Assembly (NCBI GenBank): GCA_016218625.1
Contig: JACRDL010000103.1
Span: 1 to 39,729 of the forward strand
Origin: Elusimicrobiota bacterium
Lineage (GTDB): Bacteria > Elusimicrobiota > UBA8919
DNA: 39,729 nucleotides
Direction of reading: 5' to 3'
Shown here: piece by piece, positions 22,102 through 33,675 of the stretch
How positions within the stretch are numbered: the stretch's first letter is position 1
How the letters are laid out: each line of letters starts with the position of its first letter
Position numbers and translations under genes: made by a program
Notes under the pieces: generated by a model
Databases searched by the model: none
What the model saw: only the letters and a program-made list of their open reading frames with translations
What the model was told of the DNA's origin: nothing

Positions 22102-22517
22102 ATGAACAGATGGTTATTATTTCCCATCGCAGTTAAAAATTTCCCGTATAAACTTTATATTGAGGAAGAACAGGATAAATTTTTGGTGCTATCGGTTCAG
22201 GATAAATGGCCTGGTCCCGGTAAAAAGATATTTTGTTTGCCGAATGGATATTGTGAAGAAAATAATTTACCACAGATTAAACCAATAGAAGAGTGTAATA
22301 TCATATCAACCCAGCGATACGATAAAAAACTCACAATTGTTCTTGATAGAAAAACCCGTCGCAGATGCTGGTTTTTGTTTTTGAAGGGAGAATATAAAAC
22401 AAGACCTGGTGAATTTTACGAGCAGGTATTCTGGATAACGCATTCATCGGCGAAAGAAAGAAGGCCCGGTGCATATATACCAAAAAGCAAAGATGCCCAG
22501 TCGCTTGAGATAATAAT
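22102..22517 (+). pseudogene. 5' part of an ERCC4-type nuclease gene interrupted by the IS element
   Basis: The ORF runs to 22554 only by reading into the IS. Joining 22102-22517 to 24056-24464 gives 825 nt (275 codons) in frame: ...QSLEIIIDTRERRPYKFGDAKIKRKNLSAGDYALLKNGEISAVAERKTLDNFLHEIG... Confidence 0.88.
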
Positions 22518-24050
22518 CCTGAAAAATGCGGGAAAGAGCCATTTTTTACAGTGAGCTCGTCGGAGCGCCCGCAGTGGTCATTTGCAAATTGACCTATTTT
22601 AGCAATGACTTCACTTTTTGTGCATTGCGAAATATCTGTTTTAACAGTTTTTCGTTGGGATGATTTCTCTGAAATTTCAATATGTTTTTGTGGCCGGGCG
22701 TAGTAAATTTTCCCGGTGCAACTAAAATATTTCGGCGTATCCATTTCAGTGTTTTTGATTGAAGTTGTTCCGGTAAACACAACATCTGGAACCAGCGGAA
22801 TAAATCGTAATCCAGAAGCAAAAGTTTTAAATGCACCTGATTCGCCAGAAATTTTCTGGTTGGAATTTTGCTCATAAAAAAATCCGTTTTCAGTTCTTTG
22901 ATACCGTAGGTTTCCACTGCGGCACGGTCGTTGTAAAAATACCAGACATGTTCCGGTTCTAAATCCAGATTGGTCACAAATACATGGTATTCGTAGCGGT
23001 CTATTTTTAACAATGTTCGCTGGCTGGTTTCCGGTTCTGGCGGCAATTGATATCGCATCACCACAAAACGAAATGCTTTTTTCCAGTTGTGCGGTTGATA
23101 TTGGAATTCTGTTATTGCTAATTTGTAACGATGGTTGAAAACGCGATATCGTAAACCCGGCAATCGCAATTTTATCGGTTCGGTCACTTGCGCGACTATT
23201 ACAAAACCGTAACCGTTTCCGTCTATGAATTTGACAGTCTGCCAGCAATAAAAACCGGCATCGCAGCGGATACGAATTCTGGATTTGGCAATAGTGGAAG
23301 GTATTTTTTCCAGAGCGGTTTCCATAAATGGAATGACTTCCGATTTGTTTTTCGATTTTCCGGGACGGAGTGCGCCATTGAGAATTACTCTGATATGGCT
23401 CTCGAAACCGAATACAGGATGATATGATTTTCTGCCATGCTTGAAAGGATTGTAGCCAACTTCTGCCAGTTCCTGATTCCCGTAAACTGTCAGAACACTG
23501 GAATCGAAATCCAGAGTGGCCGAAGTCAGTGTGTGCGGATACTGAAATATTTTTTGCCGGATAATGTCGTGCACTCTTTCTATTTGAGTCAGGTCCTCCG
23601 GCGTCATATTTAAAATGAAGTCCCGCATCGCTCTGGTTGCTGGTAATTTTGGCAGACCCGTCAACTCCGGAATCAGACCGTTGTATTTCATTGAAGTCAG
23701 ATGATCCAGCCGCTCTATCCCGGCAATGGTGTAGTAAAAATGGGATAAAAGCAGGTCTGACCAATGAAAATAATTGTTGCGGTGGGAAAGGCAAAGATAG
23801 GTTTGATAAAATCGTTTCAGATGCAACGATTTTGCAAATTGATGAATAATTGGGAATCCAGCAAGAAATGTTAAGCCCTCTTCTCCGAAGGTAAAATGAA
23901 TTTTTTGTATCCCTTTTCCCATATTGCAGAAGTTTCACTATTAGTGAAGGTTGTGCAGAGAGTTTTTTATCGCGTTTATTATACATTTTTTAAGTCGGGA
24001 AATCAACATTTTATTATGTCAAAAAACTGTGTTTTCCCGCATTTTTCAGG
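22518..24050 (-). mobile_element. IS1380-family insertion sequence (1533 bp)
   Basis: Terminal inverted repeats CCTGAAAAATGCGGGAAA (22518-22535) and TTTCCCGCATTTTTCAGG (24033-24050), flanked by ATAAT target duplication (22513-22517 and 24051-24055); contains an intact transposase. Confidence 0.95.
22594..23922 (-). CDS. IS1380-family DDE transposase (442 aa)
   Basis: TLDFDSSVLTVYGNQELAEVGYNPFKHGRKSYHPVFGFESHIRVILNGALRPGKSKNKSEVIPFMETALEKIP; YFYNDRAAVETYGIKELKTDF. Confidence 0.92.
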   Translation of the reverse strand: MGKGIQKIHFTFGEEGLTFLAGFPIIHQFAKSLHLKRFYQTYLCLSHRNNYFHWSDLLLSHFYYTIAGIERLDHLTSMKYNGLIPELTGLPKLPATRAMRDFILNMTPEDLTQIERVHDIIRQKIFQYPHTLTSATLDFDSSVLTVYGNQELAEVGYNPFKHGRKSYHPVFGFESHIRVILNGALRPGKSKNKSEVIPFMETALEKIPSTIAKSRIRIRCDAGFYCWQTVKFIDGNGYGFVIVAQVTEPIKLRLPGLRYRVFNHRYKLAITEFQYQPHNWKKAFRFVVMRYQLPPEPETSQRTLLKIDRYEYHVFVTNLDLEPEHVWYFYNDRAAVETYGIKELKTDFFMSKIPTRKFLANQVHLKLLLLDYDLFRWFQMLCLPEQLQSKTLKWIRRNILVAPGKFTTPGHKNILKFQRNHPNEKLLKQIFRNAQKVKSLLK

Positions 24051-24055
24051 ATAAT

Positions 24056-27512: not shown

Positions 27513-27928
27513 TGAAAGAACTAATTATCCATATTGACGGTGCGTCGCGCGGTAACCCGGGACCATCCGGGATAGGAATAATTGTTAAAGATATTTCAGG
27601 TGAAGTTGTTAAAAATATAAAAAAATATATTGGAATTGCTACAAACAATACAGCCGAGTATAGTGCGTTTCTTATCGCATTAGGCGTTGCGGAAAAGTTC
27701 GGGGCCAATAAAATTAAAATTTTTCTTGATTCGGAACTTGTTTATAAACAATATCTCGGAGAATACAGAACCAATGATAAAAATCTTAAAGAGTATTTGA
27801 AAAAAATAAGAGAGAAAGAAAAAAAATTTCTAAGCGTTGAAGTTACTCATATTCCGAGAGAAAATAATAAAGAGGCAGATAAACTTGCAAACATTGCGAT
27901 AAATATAGGCGAAACAGGAGGGGATTGA
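27512..27928 (+). CDS. rnhA: Ribonuclease HI family protein
   Basis: IIHIDGASRGNPGPSGIGIIVKD...NNTAEYSAFLIAL...LDSELVYKQYLGEYR...HIPRENNKEADKLAN; ATG overlaps the previous TAA (TAATG). Track start at 27485 is upstream of the likely start. Confidence 0.88.
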   Translation: MKELIIHIDGASRGNPGPSGIGIIVKDISGEVVKNIKKYIGIATNNTAEYSAFLIALGVAEKFGANKIKIFLDSELVYKQYLGEYRTNDKNLKEYLKKIREKEKKFLSVEVTHIPRENNKEADKLANIAINIGETGGD

Positions 27929-28358
27929 GGAATTGCTCTCCGCCAACCGGCGGGGGGAGGAAAGTCCGGACTCCGCAGAACAGGGTGATGGCTAATGGCC
28001 ACCGCTTCCCGATGTAACATCGGGAGGTAGGGAAAGTGCCACAGAAAAAATACGGCTATAAGCAAAGTAAAATGTAGCCCCCGAATTTATTCGGGGGTGA
28101 GCGAAGCGAATAGCAAAGGTGAAAAGGCGCGGTAAGAGCGCACCGCTTTGATAGTGATATCAGAGGCAGGGCAAACCCCACCCGGAGCAAGGTCCAAAAT
28201 AAAAGATTCGTCCCGGTTAAAAGGAACGAAACGGGATTGTTCGTCCCGTCACTATTTTTAAGGTTGACCGCTTGACCCCGCAAGTAATTTCGGGGCTAGA
28301 GAAATAATTCCGTTATCTCGATAAAATGGGATAAACAGAATCCGGCTTACTAATCCCC
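27920..28358 (+). ncRNA. rnpB: RNase P RNA, bacterial type A-like
   Basis: P4/CRI GAGGAAAGTCCGGACTCC, ACAGAAAAAATAC, GGTGAAAAGGCGCGGTAAGAGCGCACCGC, AGGCAGGGCAAACCCCACCCGGAGCAAGGTCCAAA, GAATCCGGCTTAC; P1 GGGGATT (27920-27926) with AATCCCC (28352-28358). Confidence 0.93.
28070..28113 (+). repeat. 44-nt palindromic repeat, copy 1 (within the rnpB P12 position)
   Basis: AAATGTAGCCCCCGAATTTATTCGGGGGTGAGCGAAGCGAATAG; perfect stem CCCCCGAA/TTCGGGGG. Confidence 0.9.
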
Positions 28359-28460
28359 TTCTGTATCAGTTAAAACTTTTTATTCTTTGCCATTGGCGTT
28401 CCTGCTCAAAAGGTCACGCTTACTTCCTTATCTGTAAAAAATAATAAATAAAAAAAATAC

Positions 28461-28527: not shown

Positions 28528-28533
28528 ATGGTT

Positions 28534-28577
28534 AAATGTAGCCCCCGACTTTAGTCGGGGGTGAGTGGAGCGAATAG
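28534..28577 (+). repeat. 44-nt palindromic repeat, copy 2 (mraZ 5' leader)
   Basis: AAATGTAGCCCCCGACTTTAGTCGGGGGTGAGTGGAGCGAATAG; 40/44 identical to copy 1. Confidence 0.9.
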
Positions 28578-29944: not shown

Positions 29945-30022
29945 AAATTTCTTTGGTCGCTCCCTTGCTTGCCCCGTTAGATAAGATTCTCTATCTAACG
30001 GGGTAAATCGCTCAAAGAATTT
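29945..30022 (+). repeat. Palindromic element in the rsmH-ftsL spacer
   Basis: Inner perfect 12-bp stem CCCCGTTAGATA (29972-29983)/TATCTAACGGGG (29992-30003); outer AAATTTCTTTG (29945-29955)/CAAAGAATTT (30013-30022). Confidence 0.75.
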
Positions 30023-30431: not shown

Positions 30432-32101
30432 GAACGGTCAGATATAAAATTATCTTTATTTGCCTTTTTATTTTTTTTATGTTTTTCATTATTGGTTCCC
30501 GTTTGTTTTGGGTGCAAATCGTTAATTATACTTTTTTTGCCCAAGAGGTTTCTAAACAATCCAAAAGAATAAAAAAAACTCAGACATTAAGGGGAAACAT
30601 TTATGATAGAAATATGGTGACTCTTGCAACAAGTATGGTGGCGGAGTCATGCTACATTGAGACAAAAAAAGCAAATGGCTTGGATGTAGAACTTTTTTCA
30701 AAATGTACAGGCATCTCGCCCGCGGATATCCGTTCAAAATTAAATCAGAATAAAAATTCAGTGCTGATAAAAAGGAAATTGCTTCCGGATGAAGTGCTGA
30801 AAATTAAATCAAAAAATTTCCCCGGCGTTTATTTTGAAAAAGAGCAACTACGTTTTTATCCTGAGAATTCGCTGGCAAATTATGTGGTCGGAGTTGTCGG
30901 AACAGACAATAAAGGGTTGTCCGGCGTTGAGTATCTATTTGATGATTTTCTTACGGGTCTGGCAAAAAAATATGTTGTTATGAAAGATGGCAAGGGGAGG
31001 GAGATAATTTTAGATAATGATTCGGAAGATGAAAACAGGTATGTGGTGCTGACAATTGATAGCCGTTTGCAGCACATTGCCGAGGCGGTTCTTAAAAAAG
31101 CACATAAAACTACAAATGCCAAATCACTGACTTGTATAATTCAAAATCCGTATACCGGCGAAATTCTTGCGATGGCATCATATCCGTCTTATGACCCGAA
31201 TAAAAAAATTGACCCAAAAATGCTCAAAAACATATCTCTCGGCGATGCATTTGAGCCCGGAAGTGTTTTTAAGATTGTAACCGCCGCAGCTGCTTTGGAA
31301 AAACATCCGGAAGTTTTAAGTAAAAATTTTTTCTGTGAAAACGGTTCTTATAAATTGGCGAAAAATATAACCATACATGACCATGAAAAATACGGCTTGT
31401 TATCTTTTCAAGATATGTTTGCTTATTCTTCAAATATAGGTTTTGCAAAACTTGCCAGAATTATAGGAAAACAGGATCTGTGGCAGTATGCCCGTTCTTT
31501 CGGGTTTGGAATGAATACGGGAATAGAACTCACAGGAGAGACATCAGGGCGTTTAGAACCTGCGAGCAAATGGTCGGGTGTTTCCTGTGAAATAATTTCT
31601 TTCGGGCAGGAATTATCCGCCAATGCTTTACAAATCATAAATTCATTTTCAACCGTTGCCAACGGCGGAGTTTTGATGGAGCCGAAAATAATAAAATCCA
31701 TTTTTTGTAACAACAAGGATATCCAAACTTTTGAACCGGTAAAAATAAGAAGGGTAATTTCACCTGCGACCGCCGACAGTATCAGAAAAATGCTGGAAGC
31801 CGTTGTTGAATACGGTACCGGTGTTCAGGCAAAAATTGACGGTATTAAGATTGCCGGTAAAACAGGCACTGCCCAAAAATACGACAAGCATCTGAAAAGG
31901 TATTCCGATTCAAAATATGTTTCGCTTTTTGCGGGATTTTTTCCGTCTAAAAAGCCCGAGGTAACGATACTGGTTATCGTGGACGAGCCGAAAGGAGATT
32001 ACTGGGCATCTTCGGTTGCCACGCCGATTTTCAGAAACATTTCATCAAACATTCTTGAATATCTGAATATCCGCCAGGAAAACAAATTTGCGCTAAAATG
32101 A
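30428..32101 (+). CDS. ftsI: Penicillin-binding protein / division transpeptidase
   Basis: EPGSVFKIVTAAAALE (SxxK), YSSNIGFAKLA (SxN), KTGTAQKYD (KTG). Confidence 0.93.
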   Translation: MRTVRYKIIFICLFIFFMFFIIGSRLFWVQIVNYTFFAQEVSKQSKRIKKTQTLRGNIYDRNMVTLATSMVAESCYIETKKANGLDVELFSKCTGISPADIRSKLNQNKNSVLIKRKLLPDEVLKIKSKNFPGVYFEKEQLRFYPENSLANYVVGVVGTDNKGLSGVEYLFDDFLTGLAKKYVVMKDGKGREIILDNDSEDENRYVVLTIDSRLQHIAEAVLKKAHKTTNAKSLTCIIQNPYTGEILAMASYPSYDPNKKIDPKMLKNISLGDAFEPGSVFKIVTAAAALEKHPEVLSKNFFCENGSYKLAKNITIHDHEKYGLLSFQDMFAYSSNIGFAKLARIIGKQDLWQYARSFGFGMNTGIELTGETSGRLEPASKWSGVSCEIISFGQELSANALQIINSFSTVANGGVLMEPKIIKSIFCNNKDIQTFEPVKIRRVISPATADSIRKMLEAVVEYGTGVQAKIDGIKIAGKTGTAQKYDKHLKRYSDSKYVSLFAGFFPSKKPEVTILVIVDEPKGDYWASSVATPIFRNISSNILEYLNIRQENKFALK

Positions 32102-33675
32102 AAATTTCCGAATTAATAAATAAGTTAGACATAGAGTTGCACGGTGCCGGGGATAAAGAAATATCAGGCGTTGCATATGATTCGCGTAAGGTATCAAAGG
32201 ATTACCTTTTTGTCGCTTTGCACGGTTTGAAAGAGGATGGGAAAAATTATATTAAAGACGCGATTTCGCACGGTGCAGCTGCAATACTTACGGATGACAA
32301 AACTATAAACCCCGTTAGAAGTGGCACATCGTGCCCTGTTAGAGATGTCGCACCGCGACACGGTATCTCTAACAGGGCGTGCTACGATACTTCTATTGGG
32401 GTAAAATATGATAATACAGTTTTTCTTACAACGAATAATGTTTCAGATATGTTCGGTAAAATTTCTTCGCGGTTTTACGATAAACCGTCTAAGAAAATGA
32501 AGGTTTTTGCAGTAACCGGTACAAACGGTAAAACAACTATTACATATATTATTGAAAAGATATTTGAAAATGCCGGAATAAAATTAGGCGTTGTAGGGAC
32601 AATTTTTTATCGTTTCGGAAATCTTTCAATTTCTGCGCCCAACACGACTCCCCAATCATTGGATTTACACGAACTTCTTTCAAAAATGGAATCTGCGGGC
32701 GCCGACGGTGTTGTTATGGAGGTTTCGTCGCACGGGCTTGTTCAAAACAGAATTTCTGGATTAGAGATAGATGTAGCAATTTTTACCAATCTTACACGGG
32801 ACCATCTGGATTATCATAAAACAATGGATGGGTATAAAAAAGCAAAATTCCTTCTTTTTGAAAAATTTTTAAGTGAGTCGGAAAAGGAAAAAAAATATTC
32901 CATAATAAATGTTGACGATTCTGCCGGCCGCGAATTGACAAAAATTGCCAAAGGCACAGTAATAACATATGGTATAAAATCCGATGCCGATATAAAAGCG
33001 ACAGATATTGAAATGTTTAAAAATAAGACCATGTTTAATGTAGAAATTTCCGGTAAAAAAATAAAGATAGAGACAAAACTCATAGGTCGGCACAACATTT
33101 ATAACATACTTGCCGCTATCGGTTGTGCGTATTCGCAAAATATAGATTTAGAAAAACTCGCGGACGGAATTAAAAAATTTGAGACGGTTCCCGGAAGATT
33201 TGAAACGGTTCACGGCGGGCAACCGTTTTCGGTCATAATTGATTATGCCCATACTCCTGATGCACTCGGTAATTTAATTCAGGCGGCAAGGACGATAAAA
33301 CATAAAAAAATCATTACCGTTTTCGGTTGTGGCGGCGACCGCGACCGCTCAAAGAGACCTTTAATGGGCGAAATTGTAGGTAGAATGTCCGACTATACGA
33401 TTATAACATCGGACAATCCTCGTTCTGAAAAACCGGAGCTGATAGCGTTAGATGTGGAGGTCGGATTGCAGAGAGTAAAATGCAAAAATTATGAGGTTAT
33501 ATTGGACAGAACCGATGCGATAAAAAGAGCCGTTGAACTTTGTTCACCCGATGATATACTTCTTATAGCGGGAAAAGGTCATGAAAATTATCAGATTATA
33601 GAAAACGAAAAAATTCCCTACAACGATAAAGAGGTTGCGATAAAAATACTGACTGAAAAATATGGAAAAAACTGA
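32098..33675 (+). CDS. murE: UDP-MurNAc-tripeptide ligase (probably meso-DAP-adding)
   Basis: VTGTNGKTTITYII...NTTPQSLDLHELL...TNLTRDHLDYHKTMDGYKKAKFLLF...SDNPRSEKPE (DNPR motif)...GKGHENYQII. Confidence 0.95.
   Translation: MKISELINKLDIELHGAGDKEISGVAYDSRKVSKDYLFVALHGLKEDGKNYIKDAISHGAAAILTDDKTINPVRSGTSCPVRDVAPRHGISNRACYDTSIGVKYDNTVFLTTNNVSDMFGKISSRFYDKPSKKMKVFAVTGTNGKTTITYIIEKIFENAGIKLGVVGTIFYRFGNLSISAPNTTPQSLDLHELLSKMESAGADGVVMEVSSHGLVQNRISGLEIDVAIFTNLTRDHLDYHKTMDGYKKAKFLLFEKFLSESEKEKKYSIINVDDSAGRELTKIAKGTVITYGIKSDADIKATDIEMFKNKTMFNVEISGKKIKIETKLIGRHNIYNILAAIGCAYSQNIDLEKLADGIKKFETVPGRFETVHGGQPFSVIIDYAHTPDALGNLIQAARTIKHKKIITVFGCGGDRDRSKRPLMGEIVGRMSDYTIITSDNPRSEKPELIALDVEVGLQRVKCKNYEVILDRTDAIKRAVELCSPDDILLIAGKGHENYQIIENEKIPYNDKEVAIKILTEKYGKN
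32309..32402 (+). repeat. 94-nt imperfect palindromic element inserted in frame within murE
   Basis: Outer arms ACCCC..TAGAAGT / ACTTCTA..GGGGT, middle GCCCTGTTAGAGAT / ATCTCTAACAGGGC, inner TGTCGC-ACC-GCGACA, side hairpin GGCAC-ATC-GTGCC. Confidence 0.85.

Follow-up and report, generated by a model that had tools for sequence, protein, structure and literature searches.

The window analysed here is a stretch of 39,729 nucleotides from an Elusimicrobiota bacterium (contig JACRDL010000103.1), and the gene of main interest within it is murE (32098-33675, plus strand), whose 525-residue product matches NCBIfam NF001126 (E = 2e-173). An earlier note, made from the letters of the DNA, had named the gene as murE and drawn attention to a palindrome inside it that leaves the reading frame undisturbed; both points are borne out, as the ORF is open throughout and the palindrome (32309-32402) has arms at 32309-32346 and 32365-32402 that are 76% complementary. 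The contrast in composition that it described is also real, with 55% G+C in the insert and 37% in the remaining murE. Folded as RNA, the palindrome reaches a predicted -54.3 kcal/mol (z = -6.6), and none of 200 shuffles was equally good. Elsewhere in the window, a second, intergenic member of the same family (29972-30003, 32 nt, CCCCGTTAGATAAGATTCTCTATCTAACGGGG) precedes the murE copy by about 2.3 kb and has no exact duplication. The window also holds an insertion sequence (22513-24055), whose DDE_Tnp_1 transposase is on the minus strand and whose 35-nt inverted repeats do not resemble the ends of the palindromic element. A hairpin of another, REP-like kind (GTAGCCCCCGA..TCGGGGG, 28062-28114) lies within the RNase P RNA (27917-28365), in its P12 region, where 87 nt separate the flanking conserved motifs vs 56 nt in congeners; a second copy of this GTAGCCCCCGA hairpin is intergenic (28531-28577).

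The murE insert had been described as one nested palindrome of 94 nt encoding about 31 extra residues. It is indeed palindromic, nested and an in-frame addition, but it consists of two separate 44-nt elements, one inserted into the other, and the exact figures are 92 nt and 32 residues. The outer element, including its nested copy (32310-32401), stands between TAAA at 32306-32309 and TAAA at 32402-32405, and 92 nt plus one TAAA make 96 nt, or 32 codons (residues 71-102). The outer element starts CCCCGTTAGA, the inner element has the same kind of ends, and each is bounded by direct repeats of 4 nt, TAAA for the outer and CGTG for the inner. Uninterrupted copies of 44 nt in the same genome (for example C108:14815, C37 and C41:64257) begin with exactly the left part of the outer element (CCCCGTTAGAAGTGGCACATCGTG, 32310-32333). 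This part ends in the left CGTG (32330-32333), which recurs at 32378-32381 and occurs singly in the uninterrupted copies. The inner element (CCCTGTTAGAGATGTCGCACCGCGACACGGTATCTCTAACAGGG, 32334-32377) has close copies that stand alone with duplications of their own, namely C80:11804 (TGAA), C41:42173 (TCAA) and C33:14657 (TTGA). Beyond the right CGTG (32378-32381), assigned by comparison of copies, the right part of the outer element (CTACGATACTTCTATTGGGG, 32382-32401) carries two substitutions relative to the consensus ...TCTAACGGGG. When the genome was searched with the murE element, some partial copies matched query positions 5-30 plus 74-98 and others only 30-73, because the outer and inner elements each occur alone, the outer type as CCCCGTTAGAAGTGGCACATCGTGCTACGATACTTCTAACGGGG; thus, the murE insert is an element within an element. 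Furthermore, four other copies of the outer element are interrupted at this same bond: by the inner type found in murE, in reversed orientation, in C66; by a different 44-mer in two copies on C91; and by a 26-nt element in C78. The loop of the outer hairpin is therefore an insertion hotspot. As both C91 copies share their inner element, they may stem from a single nesting, after which the 92-nt unit moved, or from two events.

The direction of the change is clear. In the alignment of orthologues that the earlier note had proposed, the insert is absent from all 29 Elusimicrobiota MurE sequences, and none has a homologous peptide. At the level of DNA, the murE site is empty in two congeners (G001 and G002), with a single TAAA in G002, and the left and right flanks align to congener sequence with an overlap of exactly 4 nt (L045/L046), which sets the limits of both TAAA duplications. 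Similar alignments to G001 and G002 were made for 14 further host genes, and in 15 of 15, murE included, the element is absent from the congeners, whose sequence is generally shorter by 48 nt where the copy is single, by 96 nt where it is nested and by 78 nt at the HMGL copy, in which the inner element has 26 nt. Alignments were untidy at UvrB (which carries two insertions), at one NadA and at some divergent flanks, but there too the congeners are without the element. The copies in murE and in the 14 other host genes are thus insertions in this genome, not deletions elsewhere. An AlphaFold model, also among the checks suggested earlier, shows what such an insertion might mean for the protein: the MurE insert is predicted as a disordered loop between two strands of the N-terminal domain on an otherwise intact and confident fold (mean pLDDT 90.4), and residues 74-102 form the single segment with pLDDT below 50.

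The search for further copies found many, including some in other ORFs. About 49 sites, defined by exact ends and counted from the search listing, were found in this draft assembly, which is 86% complete. A strict pattern matched 29 copies in the genome, nothing when the pattern was reversed as a control and nothing in the two congeners. Among 33 catalogued 44-mers (one site, C124:2708, was entered twice), 26 have identical 4-nt flanks, mostly of the form TNNA (TTGA 7, TTTA 5, TCAA 4, TAAA 4, plus others), and seven have unequal flanks; the duplications CGTG (inner murE element), CAAG and CTTG depart from TNNA. One unequal pair, TTCA|TAAA, recurs in independent insertions and also in Omnitrophota (the two UvrB copies, the CoaBC copy, L119 and L182). 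Both ends of the element read CCC[CT]GTTAGA, and the 13-bp arms are paired in 98% of cells. Distinct versions keep the 13-bp outer stem, a 5-nt bulge and a 5-bp inner stem, and changes on both sides of seven pairs preserve the arms, as at position 4/41, where U-A occurs in 13 distinct versions and C-G in seven. The covariation score is 0.346 vs 0.148 in shuffles, with slides also far lower, for copies that are related and so not independent. Longer, AT-rich copies of 64-66 nt also occur (L087, L089 and L094, at C16:159, C23:5606 and C62:4775); in these, the flank TTGA and the first C of the element together give TTGACC-17 nt-TATAAT, matching sigma-70 at 11 of 12 positions. Judged by these letters, the AT-rich copies could possibly serve as mobile promoters, with site counts per region that are not clearly above shuffles.

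About 25 of the roughly 49 sites lie within protein genes, and the hosts include MurE, UvrB (twice), MutS, DnaE, DnaX, GlmU, NadA, TatD, YidC, RlmD, CoaBC and ValS, among others. ORFs of 140 codons or longer hold 25 copies, of which 24 use phase 2 and 22 share one orientation (22:3, p = 1.6e-4). A stop is always present in phase 0. In phase 1, 41 of 46 combinations of version and orientation are open, so that insertions in phase 1 would be possible, but from the codon context of TNNA in the window only 64% of phase 1 and 2 insertions are expected in phase 2, compared with 26 of 27 in a wider list (p = 1e-4). The one phase-1 copy (L030) lies ten residues from the start of its protein. In the open phase, the element reads xx-C CCT/C GTT AGA ... 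TCT AAC A/GGG, giving a polar, turn-rich peptide of the form xPVR...SN[GR]V.

The family is not confined to this genome. In GTDB species genomes, a scan matched at least 111 stretches, and as some single matches may be due to chance, the conclusion about other phyla rests on loci with duplications. Among the matches listed, 75 sites have exact 4-nt duplications, 80% of them TNNA, in Omnitrophota, Patescibacteria, Planctomycetota, Deltaproteobacteria/Desulfobacterota, Nitrospirota and Cloacimonadota, and in another Elusimicrobia genome. The family is thus present in at least seven phyla, six of them besides Elusimicrobiota. Between genomes the ends are common and the interiors differ. Among the same matches, length plus 4 is divisible by three at 11 of 11 sites in ORFs vs 27 of 64 outside (p = 4e-4). 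Most of the 11 have the same peptide signature, the phase-2 copies among them. The hosts of these phase-2 copies are ETF, RACo, topoisomerase I, DNA polymerase I, a tyrosine recombinase and a flavin/pyridine-nucleotide oxidoreductase; a penicillin-binding protein also hosts a copy, with unequal flanks. One genome, Deltaproteobacteria RBG_16_49_23 (G103; e.g. L243 and L247), has more than 60 related copies of 40-210 nt, with modular interiors made of repeated blocks.

We consider it highly probable (about 0.9) that the murE insert is non-autonomous, MITE-like mobile DNA that entered after the split from the congeners and is tolerated, its nesting and its intact frame being directly visible. On this reading, a 44-nt hairpin-forming element integrated at a TAAA site in murE, duplicating 4 nt, and a second family member of 44 nt then entered the loop of the first hairpin, with duplication of CGTG. 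Either event adds 44 + 4 = 48 nt, or 16 codons, and the 48-nt increment and the open phase would together explain survival within genes. An insertion in the open phase would add to the host protein a flexible surface loop of the polar xPVR...SN[GR]V type, and it is because the open phase gives a polar peptide that insertions in that phase would survive selection. The duplications are consistent with a DNA transposition that has a 4-nt stagger, and the covariation of the arms and the nesting in loops suggest that the DNA passes through a hairpin or cruciform intermediate, hairpin DNA presumably being the target for nesting. The element would be mobilised in trans by a separate enzyme. The inserted peptide is probably translated, as far as the open frames can tell, and its effect on MurE is likely to be near-neutral. 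More broadly, an undescribed transposition system may operate in at least seven phyla whose bacteria are mostly uncultivated, moving hairpins of 35-150 nt whose sole requirement is a shared terminus of 10-13 nt, targeting TNNA and its own hairpin loops, and producing 4-nt duplications. Such a system may have evolved classes of length and codon phase (length plus 4 divisible by three, phase 2, xPVR...SN[GR]V) that allow life inside essential proteins as a translated loop. We offer this wider proposal tentatively, at odds somewhat short of even.

What, then, moves the element? No autonomous copy with matching ends was found among the exact ends listed in its own draft genome, and no autonomous parent was found in the stretches inspected of Desulfobacterota G103 and the CPR genomes G113 and G116, where the unpaired ends inspected were paired with short partners or had no clear partner, and none enclosed a transposase. 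DDE_Tnp_1 was considered as the mover and set aside, as its presence does not track the element and its loci lack the element's ends; in general, 44 nt is very short for a substrate of a DDE transposase. A plasmid search gave no match, and only 15 viral contigs matched, mostly on one side and possibly at chance level. Mobilisation by a Y1 (RAYT) transposase, as for REP-type elements, is the best surviving of the other explanations and would suit short palindromes; Y1_Tnp genes occur in 10 of 10 element-rich genomes tested. However, Y1_Tnp is equally present in congeners that lack the element by pattern search, the Y1 loci examined are not flanked by element ends, and the clean 4-nt duplications and two symmetrical ends, with no GTAG or CGTC head, are not those of a REP; we regard this origin as improbable.

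Slightly less favoured still is the idea that the copies are beneficial, the hairpin or its peptide being selected as a regulatory or protein-interaction module. The predominance of a single orientation and phase within genes and the pairing of arms and inner stem kept across versions would agree with such a role, but the hosts are unrelated (cell wall, replication, repair, transport, cofactors), their orthologues manage without the element, and the filtering of harmful insertions can explain the phase and perhaps the orientation. Still less credible is removal of the element before or during translation, by RNA excision or by ribosomal bypassing as in T4 gene 60 and the byp elements of fungal mitochondria, so that the protein is unchanged. 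A stable hairpin between short direct repeats within conserved genes does have the anatomy expected for this, but bypassing requires neither an open frame nor a 3n length, whereas the coding copies are open and nearly all in one phase, and in ORFs of other phyla only lengths for which length plus 4 is divisible by three were found among the matches listed. The codons at the two murE repeats (ATA before the element, GTA at its end) share only two bases. Finally, an artefact of assembly or binning, conceivable for short repeats in a draft metagenome-assembled genome, has a negligible chance given about 49 sites over many contigs, site-specific duplications, preserved frames and the family's presence in assemblies made by many independent projects.

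The tolerated, in-frame mobile insertion that we favour raises multiple questions. How does selfish DNA lengthen essential proteins, why does one frame and orientation win, and which enzyme moves a 44-nt hairpin? Protein-coding palindromes have been regarded as a peculiarity of Rickettsia and Wolbachia, and a further family in many phyla makes the phenomenon general; its clean duplications and fresh empty sites also make the insertions dateable. For annotation, xPVR...SN[GR]V peptides in environmental proteins are likely to mark inserted elements. The element matches no known RNA family in Rfam, and searches of the open-access literature for the end sequence, for the peptide signature and on the topic found no relevant description, so the family is apparently unreported.

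In fungal mitochondria, byp and double-hairpin elements are short hairpins within coding sequences, sometimes nested, and the byps are bypassed; here, in contrast, the open frame argues for translation. The earlier note had likened the insert to the Rickettsia palindromic elements (RPEs), and the behaviour supports that comparison, with copies in other genes, empty orthologous sites, target-site duplications and conserved frames. Like the RPEs and the protein-coding palindromes of Wolbachia, these are in-frame palindromic repeats in unrelated conserved genes, open and tolerated. RPEs, described from Rickettsia, have 105-146 bp and 12-bp terminal inverted repeats (Ogata et al. 2000, 2002; reviewed in PMC2229807, PMC10969869), and their target duplication is unproven, being given as '?' (PMC2229807). 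The present elements differ in measuring about 35-55 nt when coding (44 nt for nearly all in this genome, 92 nt when nested), in their CCC[CT]GTTAGA ends, in 4-nt duplications with demonstrated empty sites, in nesting at a fixed site in the hairpin loop, and in a range of at least seven phyla. Length and host range are the two features compared, and as the genome belongs to Elusimicrobiota, not Rickettsiales, with listed matches bearing exact duplications in other phyla, the family is not filed as an RPE. REP elements are likewise short palindromes in many copies, but those of the GTAG and CGTC superfamilies have 20-40 bp and a tetranucleotide at one end (PMC3733652), whereas here the ends are identical and a 4-nt duplication is present. 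Type II MITEs (PMC10969869) share small size, the lack of a protein gene of their own, terminal inverted repeats, target-site duplications and a similarity between genomes that is limited to the ends; the differences are a length of 44 nt instead of the usual 50-500 bp, the absence of any parent IS found, and an intragenic, frame-neutral placement for about half of this genome's copies. In summary, the element behaves as an RPE-like protein-coding palindrome and has the anatomy of a very short type II MITE.
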